From assembly GCA_017443405.1 (NCBI GenBank), contig JAFRXS010000014.1:1-45077 (forward strand): a DNA stretch of 45,077 bases, given 5' to 3'. This stretch comes from Clostridia bacterium (GTDB lineage Bacteria > Bacillota > Clostridia > Oscillospirales > Acutalibacteraceae). Positions 27,389 to 43,853 of the stretch are shown piece after piece (the first letter of the stretch is position 1; every line of letters begins with the position of its first letter). Both the position numbers and the translations under genes were made by a program. A model generated the notes under the pieces. The model had not been told where the DNA came from. It worked only from the letters and a program-made list of their open reading frames with translations, and did no database searches.

Positions 27389-27417
27389 TTGACTTCCTGC
27401 CGGATTTCGGCGATAAT
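27389..27417 (+). promoter_or_regulatory. Sigma-A promoter of the glycan-utilization operon
   Basis: TTGACT (27389-27394), a 17-base spacer and GATAAT (27412-27417) lie about 50 bases before the GH30 start. The spacing is optimal. No clear operator palindrome is visible beside it. Confidence 0.75.
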
Positions 27418-27469
27418 AAGAGAGTCAACGATCATATTTACAATCATATCCTTGCGGCAGGGGGAAATA

Positions 27470-28807
27470 ATGAAAGTCATGCTCGATCATACACGGACTT
27501 TTCAGCGCTTTGAGGGATTCGGAGCAAGCGGAGCGTGGTGGGCGCAGCTCGTAGGCGGCAGAAGCTACCGCGACGTGATATCGCGCCTGCTGTTCTCAAA
27601 ACGGGACGGTATCGGTCTGCGCACCTACCGCTACAATATCGGCGCGGGCTCGGCGGACTCCGGCAGGGGAGATATCGGCAATCCGCTCAGACGGACGTTC
27701 TCTTTTCTTGACGAAAACGGAGAATACGATTTTCAGAAGGACGAAAACGCCGTAAATATGATGAAGCAGGCTGCAAAGGACGGCGCGGACGAGATCATCC
27801 TGTTCGTTAATTCTCCTCCGGAGTTCCTGACGAAAAATCACAAGTCCCATCTTGACAGATCGCACGTTTTCAGGACCAATCTTAGCGAAAAGAACTACGG
27901 CGCTTTCGCTGACTACTGCCTCGACGTGTGCGAGCATTTCGTTAAAGAAGGTCTGCCGGTCAGATATCTTTCGCCGATAAACGAGCCGTTCTGGATATGG
28001 GTCGGAGGGCAGGAGGGCTGCCACTACTCGCCCCGTCAGGCGGGCAGGCTCATGCGAGTATTCGCGCAAAAGATGAACGGACGTCCGCTGCTTTCGGGCG
28101 TGCGTCTTTCGGGCGTGGAGTCGGGCGATATCCGCTGGTTCAACAAATCCTACACGCGCAACCTGCTCAGGTACCCCGAGACGCGGGCGAGGATCGACGG
28201 GGTGGACTGCCACTCGTATTTTCTTCATTTTCCGCTTCCGTTCTTCAACAACAGGCAGGCGTTTCTGAGAAGGTTCAGGAAGTATATGGACCGCAGATGG
28301 CCCGGTGTACCCGTCAGGATGAGCGAATGGTGCCACATGCAGGGCGGGCGGGACAAGACGATGGATTCCGCGCTCGTCATGGCGAACGTCATGTACGAGG
28401 ATATAAGCATACTCGGCGTGACCTCCTGGCAGCACTGGATAGCCGTGTCGGAGGTCGATTTCTGCGACGGGCTGATCTATATAAATACCGACAATGAAGA
28501 CTATGAACTGACGAAGCGGTATTTCGTCACAGGCAATTTCTCAAAATATATCCCTTACGGCGCGAGAAGGATCGACGTCCGGTGCGGAGACGCTGACCTT
28601 AAGCCCCTCGCCTTTGACGGCGACGACAAAACGGTGTTGGTTATAATAAACGATACCGGAAAGGAAAAAAGCGTGACTCTTCCCGGCGCGGCGTTAAAGA
28701 TCGTCACCGACGCCGAAAGGGATCTTTTCGAGGAAAAGTCCGGTAAAGAGACAGTTCTTACCCCGAGGTCCGTTACGACCTTTATACTCGAGAGGGCCGA
28801 AAAGTGA
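27470..28807 (+). CDS. Glycoside hydrolase family 30 protein
   Basis: A 445-residue TIM-barrel glycosidase with no signal peptide, so probably cytoplasmic. Catalytic residues expected for GH30 are visible: acid/base Glu172 in LSPINEP and nucleophile Glu286 in RMSEWCH. The N-terminal FEGFGASGAWWAQ and the NSPPEF segment resemble the GH30 subgroup containing endo-beta-1,6-galactanases more than the glucosylceramidases; the exact substrate is uncertain. A beta-sandwich C-terminal part (about 365-445) is also typical. The start at ATG 27470 is chosen because CAGGGGGAAATA precedes it; the open frame reaches back to 27389, into the promoter. Its stop overlaps the start of the first transporter (GTGA). 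Confidence 0.85.
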   Translation: MKVMLDHTRTFQRFEGFGASGAWWAQLVGGRSYRDVISRLLFSKRDGIGLRTYRYNIGAGSADSGRGDIGNPLRRTFSFLDENGEYDFQKDENAVNMMKQAAKDGADEIILFVNSPPEFLTKNHKSHLDRSHVFRTNLSEKNYGAFADYCLDVCEHFVKEGLPVRYLSPINEPFWIWVGGQEGCHYSPRQAGRLMRVFAQKMNGRPLLSGVRLSGVESGDIRWFNKSYTRNLLRYPETRARIDGVDCHSYFLHFPLPFFNNRQAFLRRFRKYMDRRWPGVPVRMSEWCHMQGGRDKTMDSALVMANVMYEDISILGVTSWQHWIAVSEVDFCDGLIYINTDNEDYELTKRYFVTGNFSKYIPYGARRIDVRCGDADLKPLAFDGDDKTVLVIINDTGKEKSVTLPGAALKIVTDAERDLFEEKSGKETVLTPRSVTTFILERAEK

Positions 28808-31056
28808 AGGATAAGATAATAAAACTGCTCGGAGACGTAAAGCTCTACTGGAAGGTCCCGCCCAAGGGCAGGTACATGAGCTTCAAGGAGATAGCCTCGC
28901 TGTCCTTCGGCGGCATAGGCGTCAGGCTGATAGTTTACACTATCAGTCAGATGATGATCTCCGTCGGCAACGTGCTTATCGGCAACACGATAGGCATCGA
29001 TCCTTCTTCTCTGTACGTCATTTACATAATCAGCGTGCTGTCCGCCTTCCCGCTGACTGCGCTGCGGGCGAGGATGATAGACAATACCCGCTCGATGAAG
29101 GGCAAATACAGACCCTACCTCATCTCGATGGGCATACCGACGGTCTTGCTCGGCGCGGGCTTCATGTGGATGCCGTACGAAAGAATGAGCGTCGTCATGA
29201 AATGCGCCTCGGTGCTCGCTTTCAACATCGGCTTCCAGTTCTTCTTCAGGTTCTATAACGACGCTTACGACAGTCTGATTAACGTCCTATCGCCCAACAG
29301 TATCGAGCGCTCGGACGTGCTTTCCATCAAGAGCGTGGTCGAAAATCTGTCGCCGTCTATAGTAAGCATTTTTTTGCCGCTCGTGGCAAAGGCGATAACA
29401 GGCGACGACACGCTTTACGACCTGAAGATATACAGGGTGCTTTTTCCGCCGATGCTTCTGGTCGGCTTCCTTATCTCGGTCATAGTTTACGTCAACACCG
29501 AGGAGAAGATAGTCCGGGCAAAGACGCACGTCATCGGCATGAAATTCTCGGACGCCTTCAGGGCGGTCGCGAGAAACAAGTATTTCTGGATCATATCTCT
29601 TGCCGGCTGGCTCGGTTTCCTCGAAGGCTCGTTCGGCAGTATACTGGGCTGGATGTACAACTATCAGCACGCGGCGACCGCGGCGCAGTACTCGCTTATA
29701 ACCGCGATATCCGGCAACGCCTCGTTCTGGCCCAATCTCGTCGCTCCGTTCTTTATCAGAAAGTACGGCAAAAAGAAGATACTCGTTTTTACCAATCTTC
29801 TGAATATCGGGTTTATACTCCTCATGCTTCCGATAGTCAGGATGACGGGTTCAAAAAGCATCATCTGGCTGCTGTTGGGCTGCACGTTCGTCAATCAGTT
29901 CATAACGTCGCTCGGTCATCTGCTGAACCCGAGCGTGAACGCCGATATAAGGGACTATCAACAGTACGTGTCCGGCGAGCGCATAGACGGTATGTTCGCC
30001 GCCGTCGGCCTTATAGGGGAGATCATCACGCTGGCGACGGGCTTCGTTCTCCCGACGCTTTACTCGCGCTCGGGGCTCAACGCTGCCGTCGCTCTGTCTC
30101 TGGGCTACGACGGCTCGAACGTCTACGACGTGCTTTACGATCAGTCGTATTTCGTCAGGATCAGCAGCGTGCTCATAGTCGCGTCGGTCATCGGCGCCGT
30201 CCTCAACGTGCTGCCGATGTTCTTCTACGACCTTACGGAAACGAAGCAGAAAGCGATGGTCAAGGTGCTGAAGATCAGAGCTCTCTTTGAGGACAGGGCA
30301 AACAACGTCCTGAACGACGAAAAGCTTTGCGAAACGGTCGAGATCATCAACTCCGCGAGGGAACACGCGGGCAAAGACCTGCTCCCGACGGACAAAAAGA
30401 AGTTATCGAAGCAGCAGAGAAAGCAAAACATCATTGAAAACGAGGAGATCGAAATCGCGAAAATCGTCAATGAGGAATTGACGAAATACGAAACAGAATA
30501 CGGAAAGTTCAAGCTTGAGAATTCAAGGGCGGTCGTCGCCGCGGGGCTCGACGGCTCCGTTTCGGCGTTCTCGCTGACGCGCGCGCAGGCAAAGGCGATG
30601 CCGCGAACGACTCAGGCCGAGAAGGAAAGGCGCAACGACGCGCTTTTGTCCGTTTCCGACCATAAGGCGGCCGTCAGGGCGAGGAAGAAATACTTCCCCG
30701 ACGGAATAAAGGAATTCGACAGCTCCGTTTTCGACGGGCTTTTCGCGTCGGAGGACGCGCTCGAAAGGGAGATACACGACGCTCTCATGGCGGTAAAAGG
30801 GGCGAGAGAGCACAATGACCGCGGCGAAGCGCGAGAGCTTAAAAAGCAGGTCGAGGCGCTGCGCGTGAAACGCTCTCTCGTGCAGCGGGAGATCAAAAAG
30901 GCGACGGACGGCTACTCCGTCTATTACCGCGCGGCGAAGCCGTATCTCGACGCGAAGCGCACGCTGTCGCAGGCGGAAAACTACGAAAGGCTCGACGATC
31001 TGATGAGCCTTTACTGCGAAGCGAAAGAACGGATAGAGGCGAAAAATGCTCGGTAA
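28804..31056 (+). CDS. GPH-family (MFS_2) sugar symporter with long soluble C-terminal extension, copy 1
   Basis: A 750-residue membrane protein. Residues about 30-475 contain about 12 hydrophobic helices and the loops of the glycoside-pentoside-hexuronide:cation symporters, for example RARMIDNTRSMKGKYRPYL after the second or third helix and DIRDYQQYVSGERIDG before a late helix. Such transporters bring in oligosaccharides or glycosides with Na+ or H+. The remaining 270 residues (about 480-750) are hydrophilic, rich in Lys, Glu and Arg, and helical, with coiled-coil-like stretches. Typical family members stop near 450-500 residues, so this extension is unusual. GTG start, overlapping the GH30 stop by four bases; overlaps the GH2 gene by 11 bases. 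A paralogue with the same build is at 34838. Confidence 0.87.
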   Translation: MKDKIIKLLGDVKLYWKVPPKGRYMSFKEIASLSFGGIGVRLIVYTISQMMISVGNVLIGNTIGIDPSSLYVIYIISVLSAFPLTALRARMIDNTRSMKGKYRPYLISMGIPTVLLGAGFMWMPYERMSVVMKCASVLAFNIGFQFFFRFYNDAYDSLINVLSPNSIERSDVLSIKSVVENLSPSIVSIFLPLVAKAITGDDTLYDLKIYRVLFPPMLLVGFLISVIVYVNTEEKIVRAKTHVIGMKFSDAFRAVARNKYFWIISLAGWLGFLEGSFGSILGWMYNYQHAATAAQYSLITAISGNASFWPNLVAPFFIRKYGKKKILVFTNLLNIGFILLMLPIVRMTGSKSIIWLLLGCTFVNQFITSLGHLLNPSVNADIRDYQQYVSGERIDGMFAAVGLIGEIITLATGFVLPTLYSRSGLNAAVALSLGYDGSNVYDVLYDQSYFVRISSVLIVASVIGAVLNVLPMFFYDLTETKQKAMVKVLKIRALFEDRANNVLNDEKLCETVEIINSAREHAGKDLLPTDKKKLSKQQRKQNIIENEEIEIAKIVNEELTKYETEYGKFKLENSRAVVAAGLDGSVSAFSLTRAQAKAMPRTTQAEKERRNDALLSVSDHKAAVRARKKYFPDGIKEFDSSVFDGLFASEDALEREIHDALMAVKGAREHNDRGEARELKKQVEALRVKRSLVQREIKKATDGYSVYYRAAKPYLDAKRTLSQAENYERLDDLMSLYCEAKERIEAKNAR

Positions 31057-33343
31057 AATACTTCTTGATAAGGATTGGAGATTTCACCTCGGCGACGAGC
31101 CCGACGCCGATTATATGGGCTTTGACGATACCGGGTGGAAAAGCGTAGACCTGCCTCACGACTGGTCGGTAGAACATCCGTTTGACAGATCGTGCTCAAG
31201 CGGAACGGGCTACCTGCCCGGCGGCACCGCCTGGTACAGAAAGCACTTCACGCTGACGGCGGAGTCGGTCGGAAAGCGCGTTTATCTTCTCTTTGAGGGT
31301 GTTTACAGACACTCAAGAGTCTATATCAATTCCAACCACCTCGGCGGCAGAGCCTACGGCTATTCGACCTTCGGCTTCGACGTGAGCGAATTCGTCCGCG
31401 AGGGCGAGAACGTGATAAGCGTCCGAGTCGAGCGTAACGAGACCGCGGACTCCCGGTGGTACACCGGCAGCGGCATATACAGGAACGTATATCTGACCGT
31501 TTCGAATAACGCTTATTTCACACAAAACGGGATATTCATAAGAACGCAAAGCGTCGACTCCGACGGCGCCGCCATACTCTCCGCCGAATATGAAACGGTC
31601 GGCTGCGACGGGGCGGAAGCCGCCGTCGAAGACGAAAACGGCGCGGTGATCGCACGGTCCGAAGCGTCGGGAGAGTCGGGAAGACTTGAGCTGAGAGTCG
31701 AAAACGCGAAGCTCTGGTCGCCGGACAGTCCGTATCTTTATAATATCCGCTTCACGGCCTTTTCGGGCGGCGCGAAGAGCGACGAGGAGGTCATACCGTT
31801 CGGTATCAGAACTATCCGTTTCGACGCGGATAAGGGCTTTTTCCTGAACGGGATAAACATGAAGCTGAAAGGTGTCTGCGTGCATCACGACGCGGGCGCG
31901 CTCGGCGCCGCCGTCCCTCCCGCCGTATGGGAGAGACGTTTAACTGCGTTCAAAGACGCGGGCTGCAATGCTCTGCGCACGGCGCACAATCCCCCCGATC
32001 CTGCACTTCTGGACCTATGCGACAGGCTCGGTTTCCTCGTCATGGACGAGGCGTTCGACGAGTGGGAGGGCGCGAAAAACAAGTGGTGGCAGGGGCACAA
32101 CGTCTATCCGCCCAAGCGTTTCGGATACGCCGAGGATTTTCCCCTCTGGCACAGGGCGGACCTTGAGGACATGATAAAGCGCGACCGCAACCACCCCTGC
32201 GTGATACTCTGGTCGATAGGCAACGAGATAGACTATCCCAACGACCCCTACGTCACGCCGCTGTTTGACGAGGTGCTTGGCAACAACGATAACGGCAAGC
32301 CCGCCTCCGAGAGGAGATACGACCCCAAAAAGCCCGACGCCAAAAGGCTCGCGACGGTCGCGAAGGAGCTTATCGGCATCGTTCACTCGGTCGATACCTC
32401 ACGGCCCGCGCTGTCCGCTATGTCTTTTCCGGAGCTTTCTACCCGCACGGGCTTTGCCGGCACGCTCGACGTCTGGGGCTATAATTACCGGGAGAAGCTT
32501 TACGAAGAGGATCACGGGCGTTTCCCCGATAAGGTCATCTTCGGCAGCGAGAATTCGCACTCTGCGTCGGCGTGGTACGCGGTCCGGGACAACGACTTTA
32601 TCTGCGGTCAGTTCCTGTGGACGGGCGTCGACTTTCTCGGCGAATGCCGCGGCTGGCCCGTGAGGATATCGCAGGCGGGCTTGCTCGACCTCTGCGGTTT
32701 CAAAAAGCCGCTTTTCTATCAGCGGAAGGCGCTCTGGACAGACGAACCTTTCGTGAAGATAGCCGTGTCGAAAGGGGAGCGGGAAAACACTTCCGTCTGG
32801 ACGGACCGCTTCGTCTACTCCGGCAGGGACGGCGAAAAGACGCAGGTGAGCTGCTATACGAACCGCGGCGCCGTCGAGCTTTTCCTCAACGGCAGGAGCC
32901 TCGGTAAAAAAGAACTCGCGGCGTGCGACGGCGGCAGGGCGGTCTTTGAGATACCCTTTGAAAAAGGAACGCTGAAGGCCGTGACAGACGGCGCGGAGGA
33001 CGTCCTCGCGACTCCCGGACAGGCATGCGGACTGAAGCTCGAGCCGTATATTTCGGGAAATATCGCTCAGGTGGAAGTCAGCCTGACGGACGAGGACGGA
33101 AACGTCACGGATGACGACAGGACGGTGAGCTACCGCCTTTCCGGCGGAGGAAAGATACTCGGTATCGAAAACGGCAAGCCGGATGACCTCACGCCTTATT
33201 ACGAGCCGTTCCGTGCGACCTTCAACGGCAGATCGGTCGTATATATCCGCCTTGATGAAAACGGCGGGCCCGCCGCTCTGACTGCCGCCGCGGACGGCGG
33301 AAACGGGCGGACCGGTGAAATCAAAAGCGTTCTTTCGTTTTGA
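31046..33343 (+). CDS. Glycoside hydrolase family 2 protein (beta-galactosidase-like)
   Basis: A 765-residue cytoplasmic exo-glycosidase. Domains in order: jelly-roll sugar-binding domain (about 1-160, with LPHDWSVEHPF and GTAWYRKHF), Ig-like domain (about 165-258), TIM barrel (about 259-550), a DUF4982-like domain (about 553-660, with KPLFYQRKALWTDEP) and a final beta-sandwich (about 662-760). Catalytic residues: acid/base Glu394 in WSIGNEID and nucleophile Glu502 in IFGSEN; RTAHNPPDP is the family substrate-site motif. Substrate (beta-galactoside, beta-glucuronide or other) cannot be settled from sequence. No signal peptide. The start is coupled to the transporter gene with GAGG six bases upstream. 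Confidence 0.92.
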   Translation: MLGKILLDKDWRFHLGDEPDADYMGFDDTGWKSVDLPHDWSVEHPFDRSCSSGTGYLPGGTAWYRKHFTLTAESVGKRVYLLFEGVYRHSRVYINSNHLGGRAYGYSTFGFDVSEFVREGENVISVRVERNETADSRWYTGSGIYRNVYLTVSNNAYFTQNGIFIRTQSVDSDGAAILSAEYETVGCDGAEAAVEDENGAVIARSEASGESGRLELRVENAKLWSPDSPYLYNIRFTAFSGGAKSDEEVIPFGIRTIRFDADKGFFLNGINMKLKGVCVHHDAGALGAAVPPAVWERRLTAFKDAGCNALRTAHNPPDPALLDLCDRLGFLVMDEAFDEWEGAKNKWWQGHNVYPPKRFGYAEDFPLWHRADLEDMIKRDRNHPCVILWSIGNEIDYPNDPYVTPLFDEVLGNNDNGKPASERRYDPKKPDAKRLATVAKELIGIVHSVDTSRPALSAMSFPELSTRTGFAGTLDVWGYNYREKLYEEDHGRFPDKVIFGSENSHSASAWYAVRDNDFICGQFLWTGVDFLGECRGWPVRISQAGLLDLCGFKKPLFYQRKALWTDEPFVKIAVSKGERENTSVWTDRFVYSGRDGEKTQVSCYTNRGAVELFLNGRSLGKKELAACDGGRAVFEIPFEKGTLKAVTDGAEDVLATPGQACGLKLEPYISGNIAQVEVSLTDEDGNVTDDDRTVSYRLSGGGKILGIENGKPDDLTPYYEPFRATFNGRSVVYIRLDENGGPAALTAAADGGNGRTGEIKSVLSF

Positions 33344-33362
33344 CAGTAAAGGGGGATTCGCA

Positions 33363-34847
33363 GTGGACCGGATAACCGCGGACGGGCTGCATTTTACCGA
33401 TGAGCACGGAAGAAAACGGATCTTCAACGGAATGAATATCGACGATAAGCTGATCGGCGATACCTTTCGTTACGATCTGAACGAGGAGTTTTTCCGTAAG
33501 TACGTTGCCAACGGCTTCAACCTTATCCGCCTCGCCGTCCAATGGGCGAATCTGGAACCGCGGATGGGAGAGTACAGCGAAAGCTATCTTCAGTCGATAG
33601 ACGCGATCTTCCGCCTGGCGGAGCGTTACGGCGTCTACATACTTCTCGATATGCATCAGGATCTGTATTCGGGCTTCGGCGGTATCGGCGGCGGCGACGG
33701 CGCGCCGGACTGGGCTTGCCTTACGGACGGCGCAAGACCGAAGCCCTACAGATTCGTTTGGGCGGAGGCCTACGTCTTCGGCAAATGGGTGCATAACTGC
33801 TTCGATCATTTCTGGAACAACGATCCCGTTGCCGGGAAAGGCCTTCAGGACCGCTACGCCGACCTGTGGAAAATGCTCGCCGCGAGATACGGCGACAGCC
33901 CCGCGCTGTTCGGTTTCGATCTTCTCAACGAACCCGCGCCGGGCTCCGCGGCGAAAAAGATGGCGGCCCGTCTTGCCGCCGGAGGCGTCCGGCAGGCGCT
34001 GTTCAGCCGCAAGATCGACCGTCGCGCCATCTTTTCCGCTCTTGTCGGCAAAGACCGGAAGAAGCTGCTTGATTCGATCCCCGGCGCGATCGTGCGCGAC
34101 GCCGTGAGCGGCGTCGACGCTATGGAGGAACGCTTCGACACCGTATATTACGGTCCGTTCCTGAATAAGATCGCGGCTGCGATCCGTGAAGTCACGCCCA
34201 ACGGGTTCCTGATGATCGAGCAGCCGTATCTCTGTAACGGCGGCGTCAGGCTCAGCGTGCCTCCCATCACGGTGAACGGAAAACGCGAGCCCCTGCAGTG
34301 CTTCGGTCCGCACGCCTACGATATGACGGTGGATACGCCGCTTTACAAATACGCAAACGCCGACCGCGTAAAGGCGTTTTTCGGCGAAATGCGCAATTCC
34401 CAGCTGCGGCTTGAAGTGCCAGCCGTGGTGGGCGAATGGGGCGGATGCAGCGATAACAGGGATACCTCCTGGTTCCCGCACGCGAACGAGCTTCTCGATT
34501 ACTTCGATACTAATTTCTGGGGGCAGCTGTACTGGGATTACCACGGCGACGATATGGACGCGCCGCTGATGGATATGCTCAGCCGTTCCTATCCTGTCGC
34601 CGTCGCGGGGCGCGTCCTGCGTTACGGCCGTTCCCCGCAGCGCGATCGCTTTTCTCTGCGCTACGAGGCGGAGACGGGCGGCGAGACCGTGATCTACGCG
34701 CACGCCCCATGCGAAGTCGAAAGCGGCGGCAGCGTGAGGACGCTCGCTTCGTACCCCAACGGAGCGTCGCTTATCGGCGTCACGGCTGACGGCGGCGAAA
34801 ACGAGATCGTACTCGCGTTCAGGAAAGGAGATACTTCATGGACCTGA
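33363..34847 (+). CDS. Glycoside hydrolase family 5 protein (endoglycoceramidase/cellulase-like)
   Basis: A 494-residue (beta/alpha)8 glycosidase without a signal peptide. It begins with DGLHFTDEHGRKRIFNGMNI, a typical GH5 entry. Catalytic residues: acid/base Glu190 in FDLLNEP and nucleophile Glu358 in VVGEWGG; LLDMHQDLYS and FGPHAYD are further active-site segments. The DMHQD and NEPAPG contexts recall the endoglycoceramidase-type subfamilies (GH5_28/29), but a glycosphingolipid substrate is only a guess. The GTG start at 33363 is chosen because GGGGG lies seven bases upstream and the gene then begins 20 bases after the GH2 stop; an in-frame GTG at 33315 inside the GH2 gene is the alternative. 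The C-terminal beta-sandwich ends at 34847, overlapping the next transporter. Confidence 0.87.
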   Translation: MDRITADGLHFTDEHGRKRIFNGMNIDDKLIGDTFRYDLNEEFFRKYVANGFNLIRLAVQWANLEPRMGEYSESYLQSIDAIFRLAERYGVYILLDMHQDLYSGFGGIGGGDGAPDWACLTDGARPKPYRFVWAEAYVFGKWVHNCFDHFWNNDPVAGKGLQDRYADLWKMLAARYGDSPALFGFDLLNEPAPGSAAKKMAARLAAGGVRQALFSRKIDRRAIFSALVGKDRKKLLDSIPGAIVRDAVSGVDAMEERFDTVYYGPFLNKIAAAIREVTPNGFLMIEQPYLCNGGVRLSVPPITVNGKREPLQCFGPHAYDMTVDTPLYKYANADRVKAFFGEMRNSQLRLEVPAVVGEWGGCSDNRDTSWFPHANELLDYFDTNFWGQLYWDYHGDDMDAPLMDMLSRSYPVAVAGRVLRYGRSPQRDRFSLRYEAETGGETVIYAHAPCEVESGGSVRTLASYPNGASLIGVTADGGENEIVLAFRKGDTSWT

Positions 34848-37012
34848 TAAGCAAGGGCGTCGGTTTGGCAAAGGACGTCGTTACCTACTGGAAAAACCCC
34901 AAGTCGGGGAACTATATGTCTTTCCGCGAGGTGCTGGCGTATTCCGTCGGCGGCTTCGGCGCGTACTCCGTGTTCACGATGGCTCAGGCGCTGCTGCTCT
35001 CCACTACTAACGTGATCATCGGCAACACCATCGGCATCCAGCCGATGCATATGTACGTGATGTATATCATCTCCGTGATCACCAATATCCCGCTCACCAT
35101 GGTCCGCGCGAACATGGTGGACAACGTGAAGTACAAGGAGGGAAAATACCGTCCGTATCTATTGAGGATGGGTATCCCGACCGTCGCGATCTCGCTTCTG
35201 TTCGTGTTCACGCCGTATTCATCCGTCCCGTATATCGTCCGCTGCCTCCTGATCTTCATCTACAACTTCGGTCTGCAGTTTTTCTATAATTTCTTTTACG
35301 ACGCCTATGAGAACCTGATCCACGTTCTTTCGCCGAATTCGCAGGAGCGGACGAATGTAACGGCGATCAAGAGCATGATCTATTCTCTTTCGCCCACCGT
35401 CACGAATTTCGTCACGCCGCTCATCGCCTCAAAGGTCGCCGACGGCAACATGTACGACCTGAGGGTGTATCAGTGGCTCTATCCGTTTATCGCGGTGCTC
35501 GGCGTTGGGCTGCTGATATTGGTTTACGCGCGAACCGAAGAAAAGATCGTTATCGCCAAAACGCATCCGATGAAGATAAAGTTCACGGACGCGCTGCGCG
35601 AGGTGGCTAAAAACAAGTATTTCTGGATCATTTCGCTCGCGGGCTGGCTCGGCTTTCTTGAGACCTGCACCTACGTCGTGCTGCAGTGGCTTTATAACTA
35701 CGCCCACCTGTGCACGCCCGAGCAGTATTCCTTCATCACGCTCATCCGCGGCACCGCCTACAGCTGGGGCATGATCCTCGCCCCGTTCGCGGTCAAGCGC
35801 TGGGGAAAGAAAAAGATACTGATCGTCACCAATCTGGTCAATATCCTCTTCCTCGCGCTGGTATATCCTCTGATGGGCTCGATATGGACGGTACTGCTGT
35901 GTATGTATATGAATTCCGTCGCGGATTCCTTCATCCTGGTGCTCAACCCCGCCATACAGGCGGATATCCGCGATTATCAGCAGTATAAGAGCGGAGAGCG
36001 CATCGACGGCATGTTCGGCGCGGTCGCCCTGATCGGTTCGTTCATAACCATGGCGACAAGTTCTGTTCTGCCCGCCGTCTACGAAAAGTACGGCATCTAT
36101 TCCGGCAACGGCTACGAGAACATGTACGACGTCCTCTACGATACGAACGTTCTGTTCAAGCTCGTGGGCGTGCTGGCGATCCTCTCCGCCGTCGGAGCGG
36201 CGCTGAACGTGATCCCGTTTTTCTTCTACGACCTGACGGAAACGAAGCAGAAAAGCATAATCCGCATACTTAAGCTCCGCGCGGCTATCGAGGATTACGG
36301 CAACGGCGTGCTCTCCGGTGAGGATCTGCAAAGCACAGCCGCGATGGTCCGGGACGCGAGAGTCTGCGTCGCGGCGGGCAAGACGGACGTCGCGGAACTG
36401 AAAAAGCGAAAAGTCCCGCGCGAAGAGCTGAAAGCGGCAGCCGAAGCGAACGAGGAATATGAGATATCAAAAGCCGTTCTCGACGAGATGGAGCGCTTCT
36501 CCACTCCCGCGGCGAAGGCAAGACTCGTCTGGGCAGAGCGCGTCGTTGACGCCGGAGAGGAGGGCATACCGGCGCAAAGCGGGACGGTCCTGAGCGACGC
36601 GAGGGCTCTGCCCGCGGCTTCAGCCGAGGAACGGAAGATACGTAAAGAAGCCGTCGCCGACGCCGGGCTGGAACTGCGCTGCAAAAAAGCCGCCCTTAAG
36701 TATTATCCCGACGGTATCGTTTCGTTCGACGAGACGGCGCTCGACGATCTTTACGAGGAGGAAAAGACGCTCGGTGAAAAGAAGGCGGAGCTTTTAAAGG
36801 AAAAGGCGGACCGTTCGGAGATAGACTCTGTGACTCGGAGGCTTAAGGAGCTTTCCCGTAAGATCAAAGAAGCGCAGACGGAGTATCAGCGGTATATGGA
36901 ATGCACAAAGGCGCTCCGTGAAGCGCGGAAGTATCTGACAGAGGCGAAAAACTACGCGATGATAGCCCAAACAGACGGCTTTTTCGCAGGATGCGGCGAA
37001 ACGGACGGGTGA
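34838..37012 (+). CDS. GPH-family (MFS_2) sugar symporter with long soluble C-terminal extension, copy 2
   Basis: A 724-residue paralogue of the transporter at 28804. The first 465 residues match the same pattern: YWKNPKSGNYMSFREV at the start, VRANMVDNVKYKEGKYRPYL, KNKYFWIISLAGWLGFLE and DIRDYQQYKSGERIDGMFGA. Helices are followed by FFFYDLTETKQKS and a charged helical tail of about 257 residues. The tails of both copies share the pattern YYPDG(I)xxFD and EAKNY, so the extension was present before the duplication. AAAGGAGA lies just upstream of ATG 34838, which overlaps the GH5 stop by 10 bases. It is the last gene of the operon, followed by a hairpin at 37031. The two copies may import different oligosaccharides. 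Confidence 0.87.
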   Translation: MDLISKGVGLAKDVVTYWKNPKSGNYMSFREVLAYSVGGFGAYSVFTMAQALLLSTTNVIIGNTIGIQPMHMYVMYIISVITNIPLTMVRANMVDNVKYKEGKYRPYLLRMGIPTVAISLLFVFTPYSSVPYIVRCLLIFIYNFGLQFFYNFFYDAYENLIHVLSPNSQERTNVTAIKSMIYSLSPTVTNFVTPLIASKVADGNMYDLRVYQWLYPFIAVLGVGLLILVYARTEEKIVIAKTHPMKIKFTDALREVAKNKYFWIISLAGWLGFLETCTYVVLQWLYNYAHLCTPEQYSFITLIRGTAYSWGMILAPFAVKRWGKKKILIVTNLVNILFLALVYPLMGSIWTVLLCMYMNSVADSFILVLNPAIQADIRDYQQYKSGERIDGMFGAVALIGSFITMATSSVLPAVYEKYGIYSGNGYENMYDVLYDTNVLFKLVGVLAILSAVGAALNVIPFFFYDLTETKQKSIIRILKLRAAIEDYGNGVLSGEDLQSTAAMVRDARVCVAAGKTDVAELKKRKVPREELKAAAEANEEYEISKAVLDEMERFSTPAAKARLVWAERVVDAGEEGIPAQSGTVLSDARALPAASAEERKIRKEAVADAGLELRCKKAALKYYPDGIVSFDETALDDLYEEEKTLGEKKAELLKEKADRSEIDSVTRRLKELSRKIKEAQTEYQRYMECTKALREARKYLTEAKNYAMIAQTDGFFAGCGETDG

Positions 37013-38245: not shown

Positions 38246-38425
38246 TCAGAACCTGCGGTCGCGCGGGACGCGGTCTGTGATCTTATTCAGGATACGGTGC
38301 AGCAGAAACATGAATTTATTATCCAGATTCAGCCAGTAAACAGCCTGGACCGCGGCGAAAACTATCGCGGCCGCGCCGAGGAGGAGCCCGAGAAGCTTAC
38401 AGACCGGAATGATTGCTTTTTTCAT
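38246..38425 (-). CDS. Small single-helix membrane protein at the end of the dehydratase-like operon
   Basis: A 59-residue protein starting MKKAIIPVCKLLGLLLGAAAI: one hydrophobic helix (about residues 4-29) followed by a basic tail ending in RVPRDRRF. GGAGG lies 8 bases before ATG 38425, and the gene starts 11 bases after the stop of the 512-residue subunit, so it belongs to the same transcript. The open frame continues upstream but only this start has a ribosome site. No known family recognised. It could anchor the complex to the membrane, or be unrelated cargo. Confidence 0.65.
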   Translation of the reverse strand: MKKAIIPVCKLLGLLLGAAAIVFAAVQAVYWLNLDNKFMFLLHRILNKITDRVPRDRRF

Positions 38426-38436
38426 ATCGCGCCTCC

Positions 38437-39975
38437 TTACCAGCCCTTGGAATCGTCGAAATCGAGCAATGACGCGTCCAGCGGCTCTTCGTTCATTACC
38501 GTAGACATGAAATCGTTGAACTGCCTTCGCATCTCGCTGCGCGGGATGTTCCGCGGGTCGATGAGATCGTGCGAGATCCACACCAGCGGGATACCGCGCT
38601 CGTTGGCGATATCCTGCACCATGCCGGTGATCGCCTTGCTGCCCTTGCAGGTGATGTTGTCGTAATACACGATCATATCGCAGTTGAACCGCTCGTATTC
38701 CTCAAACAGCTCCAGCATATTCTCGTATCCGCCCACGAGGTGGCGGCGCATGATCGCCTGCTCCCAAAGCTGTGCGACGCCCCAAAGGGCTTCTTCCTTA
38801 TCGTCCTCACAGATATATTCGTGATGCGACAGGTTGTTGAGCACGGCGACGGTGTTCACGCCCCAACATTCGTACATCCAGGTGGAAAAGTGCATATAGT
38901 AGGAGGCCGGCGCGCCGCAAACCAGCGTGCGGTGGCGTGTTTTCGGCCGCACGTTGATCTTTTCGCGCACGCATTTCTCGCAGATGGCGAGCATCTCCCT
39001 GCCGATTTTGGCGCAGTTTTCGTTGAGTCCGCTGGAGAAGGAGAGCTGGAACGAGCGGTACAGCAGATTCGGCACGCTCGGTACGGGATAATAAGGTGAT
39101 TTCGCCAGTTCCCAAAGCTCGTGCTGGATGCGCGTTTCCTCGTTATACTGACGTACCGTTTTGAAAAACGCGTCCCAGTCAAAGGTCTCTCCCGTACAGT
39201 CCTCAATGAACTTTATCACTTCTTTTACGTGAGCCACGGCGTACTCGCGCGTATCCTCGTCCTTCCAGCGCATCGGCGTGCAGCCCTGGATGGAGGGGAT
39301 CTTCAGACGCCGTTCCACTACGGAGGAGTTCATGACCGAGGAATCGCACGGCGCGTTGCTTGTGATAAGACAGGCGCCGTAATACGGCAGCTGGTCGTCG
39401 ATCGCCACGCCGCATACGATGGAGGAATTGCGGCAGGAATCGGACGGCAGTCCGTAGGAATCGATGATATCGGTGAAATAATGCCCGGCGTGCTGATCGT
39501 TGGCGGCGGCAAGTATGCCGAAATAGGGTTCCTCCACGGCGTTCGTGAGGTTCGGAAAGCCGCCGATAAGGATCGGAGAGGTATCCTGCTCGAAAATCAC
39601 CATTTTTTTCGCATACTCGTTTTTGCCGAAGCGCTCGTCCGCGCGGATGATCTTAACAAGCGCGTCCACGTTGCTCTTCAGCAGAAACTGCATGTATTTG
39701 TGGGCGATGAGCAGCGCTTCGCCGTGCGCGTCGTCTATGGTGCGGTCAAGCATGCTGCCGCTGCCGAGGTAGGGGGCAAGCCAGTGATAAGTGGTCAGCG
39801 CTTTGAAAGCGCGCACCGGATCCGCCTTGATCAGTTCGCCGCTGATCTTTTTCTCGGTCAGCCACTCGCGGAAATCGACCCACGAATCCTTGAATCCGCG
39901 CCATTTTCTGTAGCGGGCAAGCTCGTATCCGTCGTAAAAGCGGCTGCGCGTGCCTCTGTCGGTCTTTTTGCTCAT
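38437..39975 (-). CDS. 2-hydroxyacyl-CoA dehydratase family protein, divergent large subunit
   Basis: A 512-residue member of the HgdA/HgdB/BcrB-type iron-sulfur family. The C-terminal half shows the family fold: YYDNITCKGSKAITGMVQDI, then GIPLVWISHDLIDPRNI and MRRQFNDFMSTVM, which matches the usual tail (Gly-Ile-Pro, acidic residue, then a RxxxF-type helix). Many Cys are present (for example 181, 188, 202, 210, 232), more than the three usually needed for one cluster. It is longer than typical subunits (about 380-430). Classic members remove water from 2-hydroxyacyl-CoA after one-electron reduction; relatives include double-cubane cluster reductases. CoA-pathway partners are absent nearby, so its substrate is unknown. 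ATGA overlap with the gene upstream. Confidence 0.85.
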   Translation of the reverse strand: MSKKTDRGTRSRFYDGYELARYRKWRGFKDSWVDFREWLTEKKISGELIKADPVRAFKALTTYHWLAPYLGSGSMLDRTIDDAHGEALLIAHKYMQFLLKSNVDALVKIIRADERFGKNEYAKKMVIFEQDTSPILIGGFPNLTNAVEEPYFGILAAANDQHAGHYFTDIIDSYGLPSDSCRNSSIVCGVAIDDQLPYYGACLITSNAPCDSSVMNSSVVERRLKIPSIQGCTPMRWKDEDTREYAVAHVKEVIKFIEDCTGETFDWDAFFKTVRQYNEETRIQHELWELAKSPYYPVPSVPNLLYRSFQLSFSSGLNENCAKIGREMLAICEKCVREKINVRPKTRHRTLVCGAPASYYMHFSTWMYECWGVNTVAVLNNLSHHEYICEDDKEEALWGVAQLWEQAIMRRHLVGGYENMLELFEEYERFNCDMIVYYDNITCKGSKAITGMVQDIANERGIPLVWISHDLIDPRNIPRSEMRRQFNDFMSTVMNEEPLDASLLDFDDSKGW

Positions 39976-41171
39976 TCTGTCGCACCTCCCGAAAGCTTTT
40001 TGATCTCCAGCGCCTCCACAAACGCCTGGAAGCGCGTGCGCAGCTGACCGACTGATGTATTTACGTATTCTTTTTCAATGCCCATGCAGGGCAGGCCGTA
40101 TTCCTCCTCCATCACTTGCTGGCAGTACATGCGTTCGTATTCCCAGTATTCGCAGAATTTCATCTGCTGCACTATCAGCCCGTCGGCGCGGTATTCCTGC
40201 GCAAGCTGTTTGAAATAGGCCTTTCTGCCGTGCACCTTTTCGGGGTTCATAAAGCGGGGGCACTGGTTGGGTTCGATATAGTGGCGGGCGATCGCGCCGA
40301 GCGCCGTTTCGCCCTCTTTGATCGCGATCTCTTCTCTGCCGGGCAGCGAGCCGAAGCAGTAGCGGTCGGCAACCACAAACGCGCCGGTATCCTCGATCAG
40401 CTTTGTAAAGTCGGGATCGTCGTTCTCGCCGCCGCCGAGTACCACGCGCACGCGGTACCGCGGTTCTTTATCCGGTACGCGCGTCGAAAGCTCCTCAAGC
40501 GTTTCTTTCAGATACGGCAAAATGAGATCATGCGGGCAGCATTCGCTCACAAGCTCTATGAGATGGAACTCATAGCCTGTCAGGGGCGGGTTTTCCTGTT
40601 TTCGGTAGTTCCCGATCCGAGTCACCACACGGCAAAGCTCGTTGTGCTTTTCAATTGCGGTCAACAGGGCCTCTTCGCTTACGTCCACGCCGTAAACCTC
40701 GTGCAGCCGGTCCAGGATATGCTTCCGGAGCTGCCGCTCGTAGTGCTTTACCGCGTAGTCTTTTGTAACGAAGGGAGAATCGAGATGGCAGACGAAGAAC
40801 TTTTCGTTTGTATCTTTTATCAGGTTCAGCATCTCAAAGTGTTCGTGGCACCTGTTCATCATGCTGCAGGTTTCGCTGCTCAAAAGCGCCGCGAAAAAAT
40901 TGTAGCCGCCTTCGATCGCTCTTTCCAGAACGCTGCGGGAATACATGCAGGTTTTTTCGGACATGTAATAGGTGGCGACCGACGTATCCGTGATGCCCGG
41001 CGCGCGCAGCCGCACGGAAAAACAGCCGTCCAGATTCATCAGTACTTCCGGCACGAAATAACAGGAGTAGCCGAGTGCCAGTCTGCCGTCGTCCAGCGCG
41101 CGGTCCACCAGCTCGTTTTTTACATCGTCCAGCAGCCGCTCAAAAAAAATGCGGTATTTCAGGTCTTTCAT
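39972..41171 (-). CDS. 2-hydroxyacyl-CoA dehydratase family protein, canonical-type subunit
   Basis: A 399-residue subunit closer to the standard family. It shows GYSCYFVPEVLMNLDGCFSVRL (Cys37, Cys50), EKTCMYSRSVLERAIEGGYNFF (Cys75), SSETCSMMNRCHE (Cys102, Cys108), MKFCEYWEYERMYCQQ (Cys340, Cys350), and the closing GQLRTRFQAFVEALE. These are the family positions for iron-sulfur ligands and the C-terminal helix. With the 512-residue protein it probably forms a heterodimer receiving electrons from the activase encoded just upstream. Starts 7 bases after GGAG, with an ATGA overlap with the activase stop. Alternative: a double-cubane-type reductase rather than a dehydratase. Confidence 0.88.
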   Translation of the reverse strand: MKDLKYRIFFERLLDDVKNELVDRALDDGRLALGYSCYFVPEVLMNLDGCFSVRLRAPGITDTSVATYYMSEKTCMYSRSVLERAIEGGYNFFAALLSSETCSMMNRCHEHFEMLNLIKDTNEKFFVCHLDSPFVTKDYAVKHYERQLRKHILDRLHEVYGVDVSEEALLTAIEKHNELCRVVTRIGNYRKQENPPLTGYEFHLIELVSECCPHDLILPYLKETLEELSTRVPDKEPRYRVRVVLGGGENDDPDFTKLIEDTGAFVVADRYCFGSLPGREEIAIKEGETALGAIARHYIEPNQCPRFMNPEKVHGRKAYFKQLAQEYRADGLIVQQMKFCEYWEYERMYCQQVMEEEYGLPCMGIEKEYVNTSVGQLRTRFQAFVEALEIKKLSGGATE

Positions 41172-41962
41172 TTTGCTTCTCCTTTTCGGCGGGCAAACTC
41201 CGCCGCGCCGAGCGCGCCCATCAGCTGCGGATCGACGCTCAGTTCAACCAGCTTTGTTTTCAGCACTTTTTCAACGGCCTTTTTCAGCCCCTCGTTTTTG
41301 GCGCACCCGCCCGAAAGAGTGATGCTGCCCAGTGCTCCCGCCTTTTTTGCCATAACGAAGCAGCGCTTTGCCACCGCCATCTGTATGCCCGCGGCGATCT
41401 CCTCCGGCGGTTTGCCCTCGCCCACGAGCGCGATCACCTCGGATTCCGCGAACACAGTGCACTGCGCAGTGATCGGGATCACGTTCTTTGCCTTTAACGA
41501 CAGCGTTGAGAATTCCTCAAGACTCATTTCAAACGAGCGCGCCATCGCTTCGTAAAACCGTCCCGTGCCCGCGGCGCATTTATCGTTCATCGCGAAGTTT
41601 TTCACGGTGCCGTCGGGCGCTACGGCAATGCCCTTAACGTCCTGACCGCCTATATCGATGATCGCCTTTACGGACGGATCCGTGATATGCACGCCCATGG
41701 CGTGGCACGAGATCTCGGAGATGTTTTCCTGCGCGAAGGGAACGCGGTTCCTGCCGTATCCCGTGCCGACGATATAGGCGAGGTCGTCGGGGGAACGCAG
41801 ACCGTCCACCTGTGAAAGGCACTCCTCCATCGCCAGGCGGGAGGATTGCTCTGCGTTCATTTTGCTTCGCATTATCACAGACGCGGCGATACGGCCGTTT
41901 TCGTCGAGGATAACCGCTTTGGTATAGGTGGAACCCACGTCGCATCCGCCAAAGTATCTCAT
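41168..41962 (-). CDS. Acyl-CoA dehydratase activase (BadF/BadG/BcrA/BcrD/HgdC-type ATPase)
   Basis: A 264-residue ASKHA-fold ATPase. Visible motifs are the phosphate loop GGCDVGSTYTKAVI (residues 5-18), IIDIGGQDVKGIAV, NDKCAAGTGRFYEAMA with Cys129, and TAQCTVFAESEVIALVGEG with Cys168. In HgdC-type activators the two equivalent Cys from each monomer hold one [4Fe-4S] cluster at the dimer interface, and ATP hydrolysis lowers its potential for transfer to the dehydratase. The start ATG 41962 has GGAG upstream and overlaps the CooT-like stop (ATGA); a longer start at 42058 would lie inside the cooT-like gene. It is the electron-injecting component of this operon. Confidence 0.95.
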   Translation of the reverse strand: MRYFGGCDVGSTYTKAVILDENGRIAASVIMRSKMNAEQSSRLAMEECLSQVDGLRSPDDLAYIVGTGYGRNRVPFAQENISEISCHAMGVHITDPSVKAIIDIGGQDVKGIAVAPDGTVKNFAMNDKCAAGTGRFYEAMARSFEMSLEEFSTLSLKAKNVIPITAQCTVFAESEVIALVGEGKPPEEIAAGIQMAVAKRCFVMAKKAGALGSITLSGGCAKNEGLKKAVEKVLKTKLVELSVDPQLMGALGAAEFARRKGEAK

Positions 41963-42153
41963 GCGGTTTTCTCCTTTATCAGAATAACGTTTTCCATAAG
42001 GTCGATATCCATGATCTCGCCCGGGATCACCGTGCGGGCGCCCATGAGATCGTAACATACGACTTCGCCCTGCCCGGGGATCACGCGCGCGATGTTTTTA
42101 CACAGGAAAACAGCCTCTCCGTCCGTTTTTTGATATACCGAAGAAAGACACAC
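41959..42153 (-). CDS. CooT-family nickel-binding protein
   Basis: A 64-residue protein starting MCLSSVYQKTDGEAVF and ending in a VIPGEIMDIDLMENVILI segment. This matches the small CooT family: a Cys at position 2, a compact beta fold and a late hydrophobic strand. In Rhodospirillum the Cys2 pair of the dimer binds Ni(II) for CO dehydrogenase maturation. Here it sits between a His-rich small protein and the activase. GTG start with GGGAGG upstream, in the last codons of the preceding gene. A CO dehydrogenase is not encoded nearby, which makes its client unknown. Confidence 0.85.
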   Translation of the reverse strand: MCLSSVYQKTDGEAVFLCKNIARVIPGQGEVVCYDLMGARTVIPGEIMDIDLMENVILIKEKTA

Positions 42154-42156
42154 GGT

Positions 42157-42375
42157 TTATTCCTCCCAACCGGCGATCGCCGTTTCGATTATTTTGCTCG
42201 CCTGCTCCATCAGCGCTGCGGCTTCCTCCAGAAGCGCGGCATCAGGCAGCGAAGCCGCTGTTTGCCGGAGCTCTTCGGCGTGGTGCAGATTATGATGCGC
42301 CATATATCGCAGCAGCGCAAGCGTTTCGGAACGGGTATCGGGCGCTGCGCCGTGTTCGCCGTTTTTATGTTCCAT
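42157..42375 (-). CDS. Small His-rich DUF8180-like protein
   Basis: A 72-residue helical protein with YMAHHNLHHAEEL (His27, 28, 31, 32) plus His3 and His8, then two amphipathic helices rich in Ala and Glu. The H-H-N-x-H-H pattern suggests a metal-binding helix. It resembles the small DUF8180 domain that I recall next to nickel-handling genes in Clostridia; the name is uncertain. It overlaps the upstream gene by 11 bases and ends 3 bases before the CooT start. It may store or pass nickel. Confidence 0.6.
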   Translation of the reverse strand: MEHKNGEHGAAPDTRSETLALLRYMAHHNLHHAEELRQTAASLPDAALLEEAAALMEQASKIIETAIAGWEE

Positions 42376-43096
42376 GTCGTTTTCTCTCTCTTTCTTTTTG
42401 AAAATGAAGTTCTCTCATGCCTTCGATCTCATCACATACCGGCTTCATTTTACACGAGGCGCAATCGAGCGTATCCGGCATAAGCGTACGCTGAACCGTG
42501 TCTGTTATCGCCTTTGCTTTGCGCGCCAGCTCGGCAAGCGCGCGGTAATCGGAGTTCTGATCCGTAATAAATACCGTATTTACGCTCTCCACGTCTTCGT
42601 GTTTCTTCAGCAGCCGGATAAGACTGCAGCCCACGTTCATAAAAGACAGCGGATGCTCCCGCTCCAGGGCGGATCTTGCCACACGCACCTGCTCCCGCCC
42701 CGCGGAGGGCGAAATGCGGATGTGATAGCCTTCGGGATAGAGCTGAAAGACCGAAAAAGCGATCGTTTGCAGCTGTTCGTAACGAAGGTCTTTATCGCTG
42801 TCCTCTCTCAGCTTTATGACCGTAAAATGCGCGAACGGCGTATCGTCCGAAAGCTCGCGCAGGTCTTTGCCGTAAAGAAGGACCTCGTCTCTGTTTTGCG
42901 GCGGATCGCCGAACACAACGCTCTCAACGGCCGCTTTGCCGCTGCCGCCGAGCTCAAACGCCGTATCCGCGCGAAACAGCAGTGCGTTTTTATCGCCCTC
43001 GGGAGCGCAGAGAGCATCGCTGTAGACCGCGGATTTATCCGGCTGCCGGGGCAGAAGCGAATACAAAGAATCCAGAATGACTTTATAGAGATTCAC
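42365..43096 (-). CDS. Stand-alone protein resembling the N-terminal/A-cluster-entry part of acetyl-CoA synthase (CdhC/AcsB)
   Basis: A 243-residue cytoplasmic protein. From memory of CdhC sequences, its order of motifs agrees with the acetyl-CoA synthase subunit: FELGG near residue 47, DEVLLYGKDLRELSDD near 70-85, YHIRISPSAGRE near 124-135, VFITDQ near 175-180, then a Cys cluster C212-x2-C215-x5-C221. In acetyl-CoA synthase the matching place carries C-x2-C-x8-C-x9-C that binds the A-cluster cubane. Here the spacing is shorter, and the protein ends soon after, so the later Cys-Gly-Cys nickel site is absent. It cannot be a complete acetyl-CoA synthase. GTG start with GGGAG upstream; overlaps the CooC-type gene by 14 bases. 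Assignment needs an alignment. Confidence 0.6.
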   Translation of the reverse strand: MNLYKVILDSLYSLLPRQPDKSAVYSDALCAPEGDKNALLFRADTAFELGGSGKAAVESVVFGDPPQNRDEVLLYGKDLRELSDDTPFAHFTVIKLREDSDKDLRYEQLQTIAFSVFQLYPEGYHIRISPSAGREQVRVARSALEREHPLSFMNVGCSLIRLLKKHEDVESVNTVFITDQNSDYRALAELARKAKAITDTVQRTLMPDTLDCASCKMKPVCDEIEGMRELHFQKERERKRHGT

Positions 43097-43853
43097 TTTT
43101 TTCTCCCAACAGAGCTTCCAAAGCCTTTTTTGCGCCCGCGAGGATCGGCGACCCCGGCGGCAGCGTGAATATGCTTTCGCCCTCCATATCCTTTTGCGTC
43201 TGGTTCGGATCGTCTCCGATCACCGCAAGCACAGGCGGCAGTTCATCCGCGTCAGGGGGCGTAAAGCCGGAACGCACCCGGTTGAAGATCATGCCGGTCC
43301 TTTCGCAGGACACCAACCGTGACGCGACGTCCGCGATCGTCTGCGCTACGCTTATCGCCTTGCGGCTGCCGTCGCTCACCGGAACGAGGTATGTTATGCG
43401 CTCCATCACGCGGCGGTTGATCTGCTCGATACCGGCCTCGCCGTCGATCACGATGAAATCGTAATTGTCCGAAAACATTTCGATGACCTGCTTAAGATAG
43501 GCGTTGACCTTGCAATAGCACCCTGCCGCCTCCGGTCGGCCTATGGCAAGGAATGAAAGATTGCCGCGCTCGGCGATGCAATCCGTCATATGGAACCTTG
43601 CTTCGCTCAGAAGCGAGACCGCGTCCGCGGTTTCACCTCTTTCGATGTTCTCTGCGATCCGCATCCTGATATCGTCTACCGTCATGGGCGGAACCATATC
43701 CAAAGCAACGGAGAGTCCGACCGCGGGATCCGCGTCCACGGCAAGGATCTTTTTATCGGGATAACGCTCCCCGAGCAGACGGATGAACGCCGCGGAAAGC
43801 GAGGTCTTGCCCACGCCTCCCTTGCCGACAAAAGCAAAACTCTGCGTACTCAT
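43083..43853 (-). CDS. CooC-type nickel-insertion ATPase
   Basis: A 256-residue P-loop ATPase of the MinD/NifH class. Deviant Walker A GKGGVGKT at residues 10-17, an Asp-rich switch VDADPAVGLS, and YDFIVIDGEAGIEQINR as Walker B region. The GCYCKVN motif places Cys112-x-Cys114 exactly where CooC binds Ni(II) or Zn(II) between monomers. CooC proteins help put nickel into CO dehydrogenase; relatives serve acetyl-CoA synthase (AcsF-type). First gene of the operon, with GGAGG six bases before ATG 43853. No clear consensus promoter was found just upstream; a TATAAT at 43957-43962 (minus strand) is a weak candidate. Confidence 0.87.
   Translation of the reverse strand: MSTQSFAFVGKGGVGKTSLSAAFIRLLGERYPDKKILAVDADPAVGLSVALDMVPPMTVDDIRMRIAENIERGETADAVSLLSEARFHMTDCIAERGNLSFLAIGRPEAAGCYCKVNAYLKQVIEMFSDNYDFIVIDGEAGIEQINRRVMERITYLVPVSDGSRKAISVAQTIADVASRLVSCERTGMIFNRVRSGFTPPDADELPPVLAVIGDDPNQTQKDMEGESIFTLPPGSPILAGAKKALEALLGEKSESL

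Follow-up and report, generated by a model that had tools for sequence, protein, structure and literature searches.

In a 45,077-nucleotide stretch from a gut-type Clostridia bacterium (GenBank assembly GCA_017443405.1, contig JAFRXS010000014.1; this whole stretch is called the window below), eight minus-strand genes at positions 43853-38246 overlap or nearly touch one another and make up a set that is conserved in other genomes, where its members co-occur and their cysteines are kept. It is highly probable that the genes form one functional unit. Our favoured reading, for which we consider the case evenly balanced, is that the unit is a double-cubane reductase, driven by ATP, that comes with a maturation set derived from CooC and acetyl-CoA synthase (ACS), probably for nickel. 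The genes, from upstream to downstream, are as follows.

43083..43853, minus strand: CooC-type MinD/ParA-family ATPase with a CYC motif, Cys112-x-Cys114 (3kje CooC, 7e-18; family profile)
42365..43096, minus strand: ACS-like protein, a CdhC/PF03598 domain with a short C-x2-C-x5-C...His tail (family profiles)
42157..42375, minus strand: small His-rich protein of 72 aa with HHNLHH (relatives in loci L007 and L073)
41959..42153, minus strand: CooT-type small protein with Cys2 (PF10133, 1.8e-15; alignment)
41168..41962, minus strand: HgdC/BadF-type ATP-dependent activase, short start (PF01869, 4.7e-57; TIGR00241 over its cut-off)
39972..41171, minus strand: HgdA, a BzdN/DCCP-type subunit with six invariant cysteines (PF06050, 1.4e-86; alignment to BzdN and DCCP)
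38437..39975, minus strand: HgdB, a BzdO/HadB-type subunit (PF06050, 7.8e-38; alignments)
38246..38425, minus strand: small transmembrane (TM) protein with one hydrophobic helix (alignment; found beside hgdA-hgdB in relative loci)

From cooC to the TM gene, the spacings between the open reading frames are -14, -11, +3, -4, -4, -4 and +11 bases, and each of the three -4 overlaps is an ATGA. This agrees with a preliminary description made from the letters of the window, which had noted the same-strand arrangement with its three ATGA overlaps and the Cys112-x-Cys114 pair of the CooC-type ATPase. All eight of its gene calls stand, with two amendments: GTG is the start codon of the ACS-like frame, and 41962 is the most likely start of the activase, not 42058. 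Its ACS-like label is upheld by the family profile but is not visible from the 243-aa window protein taken alone, which has no convincing Pfam match and none to CdhC. HgdA and HgdB both carry the HGD-D domain and are the only two such proteins in the window's genome; together with an activase holding two cluster cysteines, they place the set in the superfamily of class I benzoyl-CoA reductases, 2-hydroxyacyl-CoA dehydratases and DCCP.

The conservation of the module was followed through 89 relative loci, of which 80 are the best of at least 555 loci met in named genomes and nine were added. The core six genes are cooC, the ACS-like gene, the activase gene, hgdA, hgdB and the TM gene. A locus was called full when all six passed length thresholds, so that each gene is present in all full loci by definition, and short when it held an hgdA of at least 370 aa with no cooC, activase or ACS-like match; several short loci lie near contig ends. 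There are 49 full loci (41 found via hgdA, eight via the ACS-like gene), 28 short ones (hgdA, mostly with hgdB and the TM gene) and 12 that belong to neither class; of these 12, L050 and L062 have split frames, while most of the other ten, which include L025 and L047, are cut by contig ends. Independently of this classification, 60 loci have at least 1.5 kb upstream and at least 8 kb downstream of hgdA and can be judged for completeness. All six genes stand together in 42 of them, hgdA-hgdB-TM alone in 16, five of the six in L025, and hgdA-hgdB-acs in L047; only 16 short loci had enough flank to enter this count. The TM gene accompanies hgdA-hgdB in 58 of the 60. One order, cooC-hgdA-hgdB-activase-TM-ACS-like, is shared by 47 of the 49 full loci, including one that holds a further cooC-type gene; the ACS-like gene comes first in the other two. 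L020 and L074, which lie on the same 918978-base contig, apparently represent one genome, as do G483 and G593; because of the former pair, totals of 49 loci and of 50 module genomes count one genome twice.

The window's gene set is thus not a chance grouping, since it recurs in dozens of genomes, and the relative loci with the full set rule out a cluster private to the window's genome. The preliminary description had proposed that the parts form one machine and had set co-occurrence in other genomes as the test beforehand; the neighbourhood is conserved well beyond the window's genome, and the proposal is well supported by the completeness and order counts just given. The named loci belong mostly to Lachnospiraceae, among them Pseudobutyrivibrio xylanivorans, P. 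ruminis, Butyrivibrio and Faecalicatena orotica. The full set is also found in Pseudoflavonifractor and spirochaete records, and the short set in records of Mogibacterium, Oscillospiraceae and Solobacterium. A gene of ~580 aa on the opposite strand recurs beside the ACS-like end of the module in L037, L042, L043 and L050.

Across 393 genomes of the class, the same seven are marked by hgdA (E<=1e-200) and by the short ACS-like gene (E<=2e-42). The Fisher p value of 4e-15 for this co-occurrence is flattering, because the hgdA profile was built largely from module genomes: of its ten rows, seven belong to the six genomes besides the window's that the ACS-like search had picked out, and one to the window itself. 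What the result adds independently is the absence of hgdA at E<=1e-200 from all 386 other genomes. Both thresholds were set after the scores had been seen, across wide gaps (from 2e-42 to 1.9e-13 for the ACS-like gene and from 1.5e-206 to 3.5e-65 for hgdA). The remaining ACS-like matches in the class are those of G523, which holds the divergent set L025; of G260 and G364, both of which are 716-aa frames, with a true ACS in L027 for G260; and of G411, at 8.6e-4, with no module-type cluster in L026. Near the window the system is patchy, as the ACS-like protein occurs in just three of the 148 closest-relative genomes, the window's own included.

The six [8Fe-9S] double-cubane ligands of BzdN are given as Cys36, Cys73, Cys100, Cys263, Cys293 and Cys327, and the catalytic-cubane ligands of BzdO as Cys95, Cys128 and Cys380 (PMC11971306). 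HgdA residues C37, C75, C102, C272, C304 and C340 align position for position with all six BzdN ligands and also with the DCCP cysteines, and they are invariant in 49/49 full and 28/28 short loci. No cysteine stands at the C37 and C272 positions of the aligned beta subunit of 3o3m. Judged from these alignments, a double-cubane in HgdA is very likely, and its coupling to ATP-driven electron transfer is strongly implied; the activase and the six-cysteine set support the earlier suggestion of an ATP-driven low-potential reductase. In HgdB, C181 falls on BzdO Cys95, C443 on Cys380, and C210 one residue off Cys128; DCCP and MbdO likewise align a cysteine with C443. The acid/base residue His131 of BzdO has no HgdB counterpart, C210 being followed by DGS in the family and by DSS in the window. 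HgdB has an N terminus ~85-95 residues longer and two extra cysteines, C202 and C370, which are invariant in all 49 full loci and in all 26 short loci with a full-length hgdB frame. In the TM protein, a conserved Y-(F/W)-x-N-L-D-x-K motif follows the hydrophobic helix.

The P-loop GKGGVGKTS and the CYC motif make the window's CooC-type protein a MinD-type ATPase with a CxC site, and the CxC is kept in 49/49 full loci. The best solved relative of a three-row family profile is 3kje (7e-18), a CooC from C. hydrogenoformans, with the CYC aligned. The ACS-like family matches solved ACS at 3e-8 with a three-row profile and at 6e-11 with a 49-row profile, and 42 of its 49 members match PF03598 CdhC, the window's protein not being among them. 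At ~240 aa versus ~710-730 aa in ACS, it covers the CdhC domain just before the A-cluster and ends in a C-x2-C-x5-C tail located at the start of the A-cluster motif of ACS (C-x2-C-x8-C). C212, C215 and C221 of this tail region are present in 49/49 full loci and H231 in 48/49. By alignment to ACS, the rest of the A-cluster domain, including the CGC motif, is absent from the ACS-like protein; both the A-cluster cysteines and the CGC motif presumably have functional roles in ACS. In the activase, C129 and C168, which we take to be the expected cluster cysteines, are both present in 49/49 full loci. The CooT-type protein starts with MCLS, placing a cysteine at position 2, and scores 57.4 bits against PF10133 (cut-off 27). 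The His-rich protein belongs to no convincing family in Pfam or NCBIfam, and no CooJ homology was detected in it; by analogy it is possibly a counterpart of CooJ. Its relatives in L007 and L073 each adjoin a CooT-type frame. The searches for CooT and the His-rich protein used two-seed profiles of limited reach.

Several known systems resemble parts of the module. BzdNO with BzdPQ shares two unlike subunits, a BadF-type activase, six double-cubane cysteines and three catalytic-cubane positions. The module differs in having C202/C370, the longer HgdB N terminus and the CooC, ACS-like and TM partners, in lacking the His131 counterpart, and in scoring far below the cut-offs of the curated Bzd models (82 of 453.8 for TIGR03190 and 33.1 of 448.6 for TIGR03191). 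DCCP (NF040772) is the best NCBIfam match of both subunits, and the six HgdA cysteines align with it; neither subunit, however, reaches the cut-off of 350, the scores being 137.9 and 40.9, and the module has two unlike subunits and dedicated maturation-type partners. The HadBC equivalog models give 35.2 of 750 and 76.3 of 700. In R. rubrum, cooC, cooT and cooJ serve the nickel loading of carbon monoxide dehydrogenase (CODH), and CooC-1 of C. hydrogenoformans is described as a nickel donor (PMC6006190). The window's operon likewise unites a CYC ATPase, a CooT with Cys2 and a small His-rich protein, but no CODH client was found in its genome (88.5% complete), and CooJ homology was not detected. 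With AcsB/CdhC the ACS-like protein shares the CdhC domain, but it has neither the N-terminal domain nor anything beyond the first A-cluster cysteines.

Do these genes serve a CODH after all? The preliminary description had found no CooS in the window, and this absence extends to the whole genome, in which, at 88.5% completeness, nothing matches PF03063, the Prismane/CooS family. CooS scores over its cut-off in 9/50 module genomes and not in the other 41, with any match at E<=0.001 in 15/50. PF03063, which also covers hybrid-cluster proteins, is present in nine of 12 genomes tested and absent from G022, G317 and G334, which are 99-100% complete. Regular pairing with a CODH, which the earlier description had named as the finding that would count against it, was not seen, and service to a CODH elsewhere in the genome was rejected on the own-genome result and the 9/50 count. 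ACS-type catalysis was rejected as well, given the incomplete A-cluster domain and a strong match to the corrinoid protein (CdhD) in only 5/49 module genomes. Nine more of these genomes are weakly over the CdhD cut-off, inside frames of ~800 aa or longer that we take as methionine-synthase-like proteins, and the match in the window's genome is weak and below the cut-off. The earlier suggestion of a CO/acyl enzyme is therefore disfavoured: the A-cluster remainder is gone, 44/49 genomes are without a strong corrinoid match, and CooS is infrequent. In a family sample of 175 genomes, the short ACS-like gene occurs in 14 and full-length ACS frames in six, with both in one.

Several genomes hold more hgdA genes than ACS-like genes (3:1 in G334, 2:1 in G410 and 2:1 in G483), and in 25 of the 28 short-locus genomes an ACS-like gene lies elsewhere, although in one of these the match is only partial and lies at a contig end. 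This suggests that CooC, the ACS-like protein and the activase are shared accessories. The window's hgdA groups not with the standard pair of L019 but with its second, short pair (tree support 0.999), which indicates that the accessory set pairs with different HgdAB paralogues and fits the window's different gene order. This second hgdA-hgdB-TM set (L019:1137-4336) diverges from the full module, and its hgdA is the closest to the window's. HgdA, HgdB and the TM protein would thus be the working enzyme, with CooC, the ACS-like protein and the activase as helpers that serve different HgdAB pairs. A further divergent set, L025:8845-13704, reads hgdA-hgdB-activase-ACS-like-cooC without a TM gene, and its ACS-like protein matches CdhC at 1.4e-18. 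Its HgdA retains just C75, C102 and C340, a dehydratase-like set, and its HgdB has Ala at 202, Glu at 370 and His at 443. L025 appears to be a second, dehydratase-like branch of the partnership between HgdAB and CooC with the ACS-like protein.

In the mechanism that we favour, electrons at the ferredoxin level would enter the activase, whose ATP hydrolysis would drive them onto the [8Fe-9S] double-cubane of HgdA. From there they would pass to a site-differentiated cluster in HgdB and reduce a substrate, perhaps a lipophilic one, the reductase being probably membrane-tethered; we hold little confidence in any particular substrate. CooC, with its CxC and ATP, and the ACS-derived CxxC-x5-C protein would prepare the HgdB centre, most likely by adding nickel, with CooT and the His-rich protein as additional helpers in the window. 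The action of CooC and the ACS-like protein on HgdAB, the identity and the HgdB location of the metal, the membrane tether and the class of substrate are inferred. For nickel itself the arguments seem to us equally strong on both sides. The preliminary description's "nickel-containing" is plausible; among the loci, CooT and the His-rich protein turned up in L007, L073 and the window alone. The superfamily is described as gaining new functions on loss of one double-cubane sub-cluster (PMC11971306), and a nickel site might fill the space of such a lost sub-cluster in HgdB. A more specific version, in which HgdB holds a heterometallic Ni-Fe-S centre fed by the ATP-driven double-cubane and the ACS fragment has been repurposed as a nickel scaffold or carrier, is a tentative proposal that we would not yet bet on. 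That such a system performs CO2/CO-level or other very low-potential chemistry in anaerobes without CODH/ACS, explaining CODH activity as in 'Ca. Galacturonibacter soehngenii', strikes us as extremely doubtful.

A number of observations weigh against the favoured reading. Core genes are separated by a 1.2-2.8 kb stretch holding other genes in 8/49 full loci. CooT and the His-rich protein were detected in just two of the 89 loci besides the window. The match of C443 to BzdO Cys380 lies in a very weak second segment of 1.5 bits. Three of the 28 short-locus genomes have no ACS-like match. The cysteine losses in L025 imply that neither the double-cubane nor C202/C370 is needed for partnership with CooC and the ACS-like protein, and L047:1735-5188 shows hgdA-hgdB-acs with no cooC, activase or TM gene in view. 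Finally, neighbouring genes for HypA go with an IsrA-type gene and not with the module, and the window's genome has no HypA. As HypA travels with that gene and is absent from the window's own genome, it was rejected as direct evidence for nickel.

The IsrA-type gene is a frequent companion of the module and not a part of it. IsrA is a putative isoprene reductase (PMC10134865), and a flavin/iron-sulfur oxidoreductase of ~900-980 aa that fits its description lies near the module in 25/89 loci (14/49 full), while HypA does so in 19/89 (12/49 full). These proteins have six invariant cysteines, including two CxC pairs, ahead of ferredoxin-type sites. IsrA at E<=1e-200 is found in five of the seven module genomes versus 31 of the 386 others (Fisher p 9e-5). 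The module stands without IsrA at this threshold and without HypA in G317 and in the window's genome. The IsrA-type gene, often together with HypA (e.g. L074:14515-17454), is possibly a functional companion, but it belongs to a different enzyme family. The gene neighbours of IsrA named in the portion of PMC10134865 at hand are HypA, HypB, TetR and DUF5692, and the module is not among them. The same source places an extra CODH/ACS beta subunit gene, ISORED2_01878, outside the CODH/ACS operon of Acetobacterium wieringae; this may be the module's short ACS-like gene. In place of IsrA, a flavoenzyme of bilirubin-reductase/BaiCD-like type comes after the module in L007 and L019. The other flanking families, as we judged them, stand at varying distances or are confined to near relatives.

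Four other explanations have to be weighed against the nickel-maturated reductase. The same reductase might have an iron-only HgdAB, with CooC and the ACS-like protein serving as an ATP-driven device for assembling, repairing or gating iron-sulfur centres. Such a device would suit an ATPase of the MinD/ParA/NifH-like group, which is where CooC falls; it would also suit the detection of CooT or the His-rich protein beside just two of the 89 relative loci, and the retention of CooC and the ACS-like protein in L025 despite its differing cluster cysteines. Against it, the CYC motif and the best solved match point to CooC, whose CooC-1 form is the nickel donor already cited; the ACS-like protein descends from a nickel enzyme, and CooT sits in the window's operon. 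Moreover, the plasmid used to produce BzdNO in E. coli is described as encoding BzdNO, with no such helpers mentioned in that part of the account (PMC11971306), so the double-cubane alone seems not to need CooC or the ACS-like protein. We regard the iron-only explanation as rather unlikely. Alternatively, HgdAB could be a reductive activator or maturase of another enzyme's metal centre, above all that of the IsrA-type nickel-associated oxidoreductase. The IsrA and HypA counts, the enrichment of IsrA and the inconstancy of the other flanking families speak for this, but two genomes hold the module without either gene, 31 hold IsrA without the module, and single genomes hold duplicated, diversified copies of HgdAB, as one would sooner expect of an enzyme than of a maturase. 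Such a role is improbable in our view.

A nickel enzyme that forms CO or acyl groups in place of CODH/ACS would account for an ACS-derived domain and CooC in one unit and for the 41/50 module genomes without CooS over the cut-off. It would also touch on a Lachnospiraceae member without CODH/ACS genes, in whose cultures CODH activity and incorporation of 13C-bicarbonate into the acetate carboxyl are reported; P. xylanivorans and B. fibrisolvens are named there among organisms with partial pathways (PMC7000372). The module is present in L069 (P. xylanivorans) and in L062 (B. fibrisolvens 16/4, hgdB over two frames). Yet a strong corrinoid-protein match is restricted to 5/49 genomes, the A-cluster domain of the ACS-like protein is incomplete, with no CGC motif, and one ACS-like copy serves several HgdAB pairs; we consider this explanation very improbable, and a link between the module and the CODH-activity puzzle has a low probability. 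Equally remote, or slightly more so, is the idea that an (R)-2-hydroxyacyl-CoA dehydratase of the ordinary kind, active in amino-acid fermentation, stands by chance beside nickel genes. Both subunits and the activase do fall in the dehydratase superfamily, and the HgdA cysteine set of L025 is dehydratase-like. The HadB and HadC model scores, however, are far below their cut-offs, HgdA has the six double-cubane cysteines, two of which are missing from the 3o3m beta subunit, and 42/60 judgeable loci combine the unit with CooC and the ACS-like gene, the latter usually lying elsewhere in the genome where both are absent.

By titles and abstract openings, the combination is not described in the literature searched, most subscription journals lying outside that search. 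PMC10418091 has no bearing on the system; PMC11338639 and PMC13056359 concern real CODH, and the words "dehydratase" and "BadF" do not occur in the main text of the latter. If the nickel-maturated reductase is real, a nickel-dependent member would join the benzoyl-CoA reductase/dehydratase superfamily and the CooC-type maturases would gain a client other than CODH. To our knowledge, this superfamily is known only with iron-sulfur clusters. The presence of ACS-like and CooC-type genes without CooS in many gut and rumen anaerobes would also be explained. In genome surveys, such fragments could pass for partial Wood-Ljungdahl pathways.

Elsewhere in the window, a plus-strand open frame of 5709 aa spans 10114-27243, with Listeria-Bacteroides repeats (PF09479) in 11 stretches of the first 1500 aa scanned; the long antisense open frames across the same interval are probably not genes. 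Genes for glycoside hydrolases (GH30, GH2, GH5) and sugar transporters of the major facilitator superfamily occupy 27389-37012, with no link to the module seen, and are followed by an ArsR-type regulator at 37623-37072.

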